Of a DNA stretch of 41,663 nt, positions 25,810-26,259 are shown in pieces. Under the pieces are notes generated by a model. The model did not search any database and had not been told where the DNA came from. It worked only from the letters and a program-made list of their open reading frames with translations. The translations under genes and the position numbers were made by a program. The DNA is from Acidobacteriota bacterium. GTDB lineage: Bacteria > Acidobacteriota > UBA6911. The number at the start of each line of letters is the position of its first letter. Positions within the stretch are counted from its first letter, which is position 1. The stretch lies in the NCBI GenBank assembly GCA_012719355.1, contig JAAYAM010000261.1:1-41663 (forward strand). Direction: 5' to 3'.

Positions 25810-26259
25810 TTATCCGAGTGCATCAAGGGCCCGGATCACCTCTTCCGCATGCCCGTCAACCTTGACGTTCGGAAAGACCTTCTTGATTAGCCCATCTGTT
25901 CCGACGATGAAGGTAGTGCGCTGAATTCCTGGCACTGGCTTATCGTTCAATACACCGAATGCGGCTGCAGTCTTCCTGTCGCTGTCGGACAGCAGCGGCA
26001 TGTTGAGGGTATATTTATCGCGGAATGCCGCCTGGGCCTCGACACTGTCGAGACTCAGGCCGATCACCGCCGTTCCCCTTTTCTCGATCTCCGCCATGGC
26101 GTCGCGGAACCCGCACGCCTCGCGTGTTCAACCCGGCGTGTCAGCCTTGGGGAAAAAAAAGAGAACAATATTCCTGCCGGCGAAATCGCCGAGCGTGCGT
26201 ATCCGTCCGTGATCGTCGGCAATTGAAAAATCAGGCGCCCTGTCTCCCACTTTCAACAT
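25810..26259 (-). CDS. Selenocysteine-containing peroxiredoxin (BCP/PrxQ type), in-frame UGA at codon 44
   Basis: Read from the ATG at 26259 (GGAGGAG Shine-Dalgarno, 4 nt spacing), this frame encodes a complete 149-residue BCP/PrxQ peroxiredoxin if the TGA at 26130-26128 is decoded. The N-terminal part ([31 protein letters not shown]) leads straight to TGA, then TREACGFRD. In the family this site is TPGCT, so the UGA replaces precisely the peroxidatic Cys; the resolving Cys is retained five residues later (Cys49), and the active-site Arg is in IQRTTFIVG (Arg114). The reaction is reduction of H2O2 or organic peroxides with electrons from thioredoxin-like donors, in the cytoplasm. No other stop or frameshift interrupts it, and a SECIS-like hairpin follows the UGA. 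Alternative: a nonsense mutation; automatic calling would yield only the 95-aa part from 26097. Confidence 0.85.
26098..26130 (-). promoter_or_regulatory. UGA codon and candidate bacterial SECIS hairpin
   Basis: On the minus strand UGA occupies 26130-26128. From 9 to 30 nt after it (26119-26098) the RNA folds into GGCGU-GCGG, loop GUU, CCGC, bulged G, ACGCC: nine base pairs with one bulge. The apical loop begins with G at 18 nt from the UGA. From memory, bacterial SECIS elements need a stem-loop close behind the UGA, an apical loop about 16 to 37 nt away and a G in its first two bases; all three hold. The bulge is on the 3' side, unlike the bulged U of E. coli fdhF. Confidence 0.7.

Follow-up and report, generated by a model that had tools for sequence, protein, structure and literature searches.

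A probable selenocysteine-containing BCP/PrxQ-type peroxiredoxin encoded through an in-frame UGA in an Acidobacteriota genome

The gene at positions 25810..26259 (minus strand) of the 41,663-nt stretch of acidobacterial DNA analyzed here, which we call the window, very probably encodes a selenocysteine (Sec)-containing thiol peroxidase of the BCP/PrxQ type (COG1225), in which the UGA at codon 44 would be decoded as Sec through a SECIS-like hairpin in the mRNA. We put the probability of this reading at about 0.96. The first-pass annotation had already taken the gene for a true selenoprotein, and this proposal was supported by the Sec machinery of the same genome, by recurrent TGA codons aligned with Cys in homologues, and by a hairpin with compensatory changes.

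Reading frame and start site

We re-read the minus strand from 26259 to 25807. The product, M...RALDALG*, comprised 149 residues including the one Sec, and its sole internal stop was the TGA at codon 44 (26128..26130, minus strand); the frame was closed by a TAA at 25812-25810. The TGA occupied the peroxidatic position of the motif PxxxTxxU (Pro37, Thr41, and U44), with Arg114 as its partner. All coordinates that the first-pass annotation had given for the peroxiredoxin were correct, and its assignment of a single TGA to the peroxidatic codon was borne out by the translation and by the alignment of homologues. Among the window's other genes, none gave a convincing case of read-through.

As had been anticipated for a standard gene caller, the ORF list contained at this locus solely a 95-aa frame (26097..25810), and this listing favors the view that the real product is a truncated peroxiredoxin-like protein starting from the ATG at 26097. 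However, inspection of the sequence revealed no Shine-Dalgarno-like site upstream of that ATG, whereas a strong one, GGAGGAG (26264..26270, minus strand), was present 4 nt 5′ of the ATG at 26259. Furthermore, the shorter product would lack both the initial strands of the fold and the loop bearing the catalytic PxxxTxxU motif, and the N-terminal 43 codons, which it leaves out, were conserved in relatives. A 95-residue product is extremely unlikely on these grounds.

Protein family, active site, and predicted fold

With the TGA read through, the Pfam AhpC-TSA domain (PF00578) was matched at residues 4-127 (E 3.2e-37, 127.7 bits). The BCP model PRK09437, an NCBIfam equivalog, scored 132.4 bits over residues 2-146, narrowly short of its 140-bit cut-off. 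The NCBIfam PrxU model NF040737 gave only 44 bits against a cut-off of 270, indicating that the window protein belongs to the BCP/PrxQ branch and not to the PrxU/AhpC-like one. The top PDB matches by sequence were the Burkholderia protein 5enu (E 4.8e-30), Mycobacterium tuberculosis BcpB, Sulfolobus Bcp1, and Xanthomonas PrxQ. Similarly, the fold predicted with Cys substituted at residue 44 showed a pLDDT of 95.5, and its best PDB matches were BCP/PrxQ structures with TM-scores of 0.91-0.95. Pro37, Thr41, residue 44 (Cys or Sec), and Arg114 were invariant in an alignment of 17 rows. The features of a Sec-peroxiredoxin of the COG1225/BCP TxxU type, namely the AhpC-TSA domain, the PxxxTxxU motif, and the catalytic Arg, were all present.

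Sec machinery and genetic code

The source genome (G000), of which the window forms contig C202, measures 4.57 Mb in 377 contigs and is rated 100% complete and 4.2% contaminated. A search of this genome for selA, selB, selC, and selD had been recommended, with absence of selB and tRNA-Sec to be counted against a selenoprotein; all four genes were found. SelB was encoded at C154:40113-41996 (398.5 bits, cut-off 242), SelA on C116 (555 bits), and tRNA-Sec with the anticodon TCA at C91:1744-1838 (68.7 bits, gathering score 47), and SelD (locus L019) at G000:C126:9885-10814 on the plus strand (365.6 bits). The only interruption of the selD frame was an in-frame TGA (...SSASGUASKMS...), at what we take to be a common selenoprotein site, and its product, judged from the sequence, is a Sec-containing selenophosphate synthetase. 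The contigs that carry SelA and SelB are 102 and 54 kb long, which makes contamination an unlikely source of the two; the tRNA-Sec contig is only 4.1 kb. Formate dehydrogenase, sought as a further selenoprotein, gave no match over the cut-off.

Read-through at codon 44 would also be explained if UGA coded for Trp or Gly throughout the genome, or if an ordinary tRNA suppressed it. However, TGA was the stop codon of 24 of the 35 main window genes listed, indicating that the code is overall unchanged. In addition, homologues have Cys at the UGA site and not Trp or Gly, and a dedicated tRNA-Sec and SelB are present, all of which leaves reassignment or suppression vanishingly improbable.

The peroxidatic codon in relatives

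When 84,980 species genomes were scanned and 100 relatives searched, 106 loci with a typable peroxidatic codon were obtained. This codon was TGA in 32 loci, TGC in 56, TGT in 18, and no other in any; the 32 include the window gene itself (L098) and an AhpC-like gene of the same genome (L128). When 40 further TGA-bearing matches from Acidobacteriota were fetched, the TGA fell on the peroxidatic site in all 40, one of which repeats L106, leaving 39 further acidobacterial genes. These (L129-L167) comprised several distinct PrxQ-like subfamilies, for example those with AFYVLAFTGGUT, AWFPKAFTGGUT, and LWFYPKADTPGUT. Judging from these sequences, Sec peroxiredoxins appear to be very common in Acidobacteriota. 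The proposed check against homologues thus returned Cys (TGC or TGT) or TGA at the same site across many independent assemblies, and the in-frame UGA was aligned with Cys, with conserved flanks on both sides.

Orthologues with the TGA were found in four genomes of the same family, each a separate assembly (G001, G011, G012, and G014), and the three full-length ones showed 56-61% amino-acid identity to the window protein. Compared with L099, the window gene differed by 19 synonymous and 15 non-synonymous changes over the 43 codons before the TGA, and by 37 synonymous and 38 non-synonymous changes over the 104 codons after it. A frameshift, which the first-pass annotation had excluded, is disfavored by the single reading frame, in which both flanks align with the four same-family orthologues, and by the synonymous changes on both sides of the TGA.

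These data also bear on the possibility that an ordinary Cys peroxiredoxin gene owes its TGA to a nonsense mutation, or to a mistake in sequencing or assembly, leaving a 43-residue stub or a pseudogene. Only one base separates TGA from TGC and TGT, and the genome is a MAG-like draft assembly of 377 contigs. Nevertheless, the four same-family orthologues and dozens of further genes carried the same TGA, without exception at the peroxidatic codon. This recurrence in independent genomes makes a sequencing error implausible and effectively refutes the explanation. The plentiful synonymous differences on both flanks, the SECIS-like hairpin kept with compensatory changes, and the complete Sec machinery of the genome likewise argue against it, and we consider an error or pseudogene very unlikely.

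The distribution of the Sec machinery was examined in the same 100 relatives. SelB exceeded the cut-off in 79, and a SelA check of the other 21 added G031, G033, G073, G082, and G088, giving 84 relatives with SelA and/or SelB. A TGA-containing peroxiredoxin was present in at least 33 genomes among the matches listed, and 32 of these 33 fell within the 84. Of the 16 relatives without SelA and SelB, 15, all well assembled, had no TGA-containing peroxiredoxin among the matches listed. The exception, G032, carried one (L157, G032:C267:1743-2123) without SelA or SelB over the cut-off; this genome is 72% complete, and missing contigs may account for the result.

A quick tree required eight changes between Sec and Cys, three of them forced by starred branches. 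As one case, L036 from a Terriglobia MAG carries Cys (CTSEANQF) and falls within a clade whose members carry Sec (UTSEANQF). This placement suggests a recent Sec/Cys exchange, possibly from Sec to Cys.

A SECIS-like hairpin downstream of the UGA

We then analyzed the mRNA downstream of the UGA. A hairpin resembling a bacterial SECIS element was found at 26098..26119 (minus strand), GGCGUGCGG-GUU-CCGC(G)ACGCC, with its stem beginning 8 nt past the UGA and an apical loop of 3 nt with G first. A small apical loop holding a G is a stated mark of bacterial SECIS elements (PMC1088965), and both this loop and a position just 3′ of the UGA were observed here. The 54 nt from the UGA folded more stably than dinucleotide shuffles (MFE z −2.26), and the window sequence was also more stable than synonymous recodings that preserve the protein (z −3.1; 0 of 300 as stable). 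Across all homologues, the z against synonymous recoding averaged −1.15 in Sec genes, compared with 0.01 in Cys genes (Mann-Whitney p 2.5e-6), indicating that the folding excess is absent in Cys homologues. By the same measure, no excess was detected in the Sec subgroup with UTSEANQF and in some single Sec genes.

Compensatory changes were also observed. Counting from the UGA, stem position 16 falls within the codon for residue +5 and position 26 is the wobble base of an Arg codon; the two covaried as G-C or C-G (Fisher p 2.7e-5), such that residue +5 codons of the form xGC (Cys, Arg, Ser) went with Arg CGC and those of the form xCC (Ser, Thr) mostly with Arg CGG (22:0 versus 4:8). A separate pair count over 20 sequences gave 10 double-change cells versus 3.4 after shuffling (none of 500 shuffles reached 10), and slid versions gave 0 to 4; for these covariation statistics, the stem was derived from the window sequence, itself one of the compared set, and relatedness inflates the values. 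Furthermore, the G of the loop comes from a Gly codon that was GGG in 26 of 32 Sec genes versus 2 of 12 Cys genes. RNAalifold, run on 20 Sec homologues, did not return the stem and gave a different, very weak structure (−1.4 kcal/mol); the evidence for the hairpin therefore comes from the folding of single sequences, synonymous recoding, and counts of changed pairs.

Residue +5

Codon 49 (TGC, 26113..26115, minus strand) encodes the sole Cys of the window protein, which from its sequence and spacing is the probable resolving residue of a Sec44/Cys49 pair. The spacing is the same as that of Cys45/Cys50 in E. coli BCP. The first-pass annotation had described the resolving Cys as conserved; this holds for the window protein, where Cys49 is present, but not generally, because only 12 of the 31 BCP-type Sec loci had Cys at +5 and the remainder had Ser, Asn, Arg, or Thr. 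The Cys at +5 characteristic of 2-Cys (intramolecular) PrxQ is therefore found in the window protein and absent from most Sec homologues. Given this count, a 1-Sec peroxidase mechanism is probable for many Sec relatives, while the window protein would fall in the two-residue class. For loss of the resolving Cys after Sec gain, three independent pairs were available for a formal test, which is too few.

Genomic neighborhood

The peroxiredoxin gene converges with a 340-aa frame at 24786..25808 (plus strand), presumably QueG-like (epoxyqueuosine reductase) as judged from its sequence. The arrangement of queG and the Sec peroxiredoxin was conserved in three genomes of the same family, as determined by tblastn of the neighbors against L174, L175, and L176. 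Elsewhere in the window, a cobalamin riboswitch (Rfam RF00174, 104 bits) was located at 7644-7843 (minus strand), followed downstream by frames resembling a periplasmic binding protein, a permease, an ATPase, and a TonB-dependent receptor; this run of frames is a probable B12-uptake operon.

Comparison with known systems

Sec-containing peroxiredoxins with PF00578 and TxxU are a known bacterial selenoprotein family (PMC9312934, PMC13188914, PMC1088965, PMC1794560), entered as COG1225 (Bcp) in PMC9312934. The window protein resembles this family in having PF00578, PxxxTxxU, a predicted peroxidatic Sec, and a SECIS-like hairpin past the UGA. The experimental reference is PrxU of Eubacterium acidaminophilum (Sohling 2001, as cited in PMC9312934 and PMC13188914). 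In contrast to PrxU, the window protein is acidobacterial, has Cys49 at +5, and belongs to the BCP/PrxQ branch. It is similar to the Cys-containing BCP/PrxQ proteins (E. coli BCP, Xanthomonas PrxQ 5iiz, Sulfolobus Bcp1 3drn, and Burkholderia 5enu) in sequence, fold, and active-site residues, but differs from these thiol peroxidases in that its gene specifies a putative Sec for the peroxidatic Cys and carries a SECIS-like mRNA hairpin.

The AhpC-like gene of the same genome (L128, G000:C30:54758-55177, minus strand; FFYPADFTFVU..., C-terminal NEACPSKW) likewise has its TGA at the peroxidatic site (FTFVU). However, it is a separate gene of the AhpC branch with only 26% identity. It scored 190 bits with TIGR03137 and 176.9 bits with the PrxU model, both below cut-off, and the hairpin after its TGA gave z −2.3 versus synonymous recoding. 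From its sequence, L128 probably encodes a Sec-AhpC/PrxU-type protein.

Discussion

For the window gene, we infer Sec insertion, catalysis, the partner reductant, and the role of Cys49 as follows. During translation, SelB would recognize the SECIS-like hairpin starting 8 nt past the UGA and deliver Sec-tRNA(Sec), which SelA would produce using the selenophosphate supplied by SelD, whereupon the ribosome would insert Sec at codon 44 and continue to the TAA. Because of its position in PxxxTxxU, Sec44 is the predicted peroxidatic residue; positioned by Pro37, Thr41, and Arg114, it would attack H2O2 or an organic hydroperoxide and form a selenenic acid. Cys49, on the same helix, would resolve this as a selenenylsulfide, and a thioredoxin-type reductant would regenerate the enzyme. 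By analogy with the spacing in BCP/PrxQ, the Sec44-Cys49 selenenylsulfide may be reduced by thioredoxin.

Sec peroxiredoxins with TxxU are already known as a class, to which the window gene is a well-supported acidobacterial addition. Previous counts were 43 in the Sargasso Sea (PMC1088965), 12 in a 2006 genome census (PMC1794560), and 91 in 2016 (PMC5029168); for Acidobacteriota, the 2006 census held three families with four proteins (PMC1794560). The present comparison adds the breadth within Acidobacteriota, far beyond that census, the variability of the resolving Cys, and the finding that its codon is overlapped by the SECIS stem. Standard annotation misses the enzyme, reporting only 95 aa that exclude the active site. 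The chances seem to us evenly balanced that Sec BCP/PrxQ proteins form several subfamilies widespread in Acidobacteriota (plus one Krumholzibacteria MAG), and that among them Sec and Cys have repeatedly been exchanged and the resolving Cys has often been lost. If so, the 1-Sec mechanism would be common in the phylum, and the SECIS stem would constrain the codon of the resolving residue. This overlap, together with the variability of the residue, would offer a natural system to study Sec/Cys exchange in peroxiredoxins.
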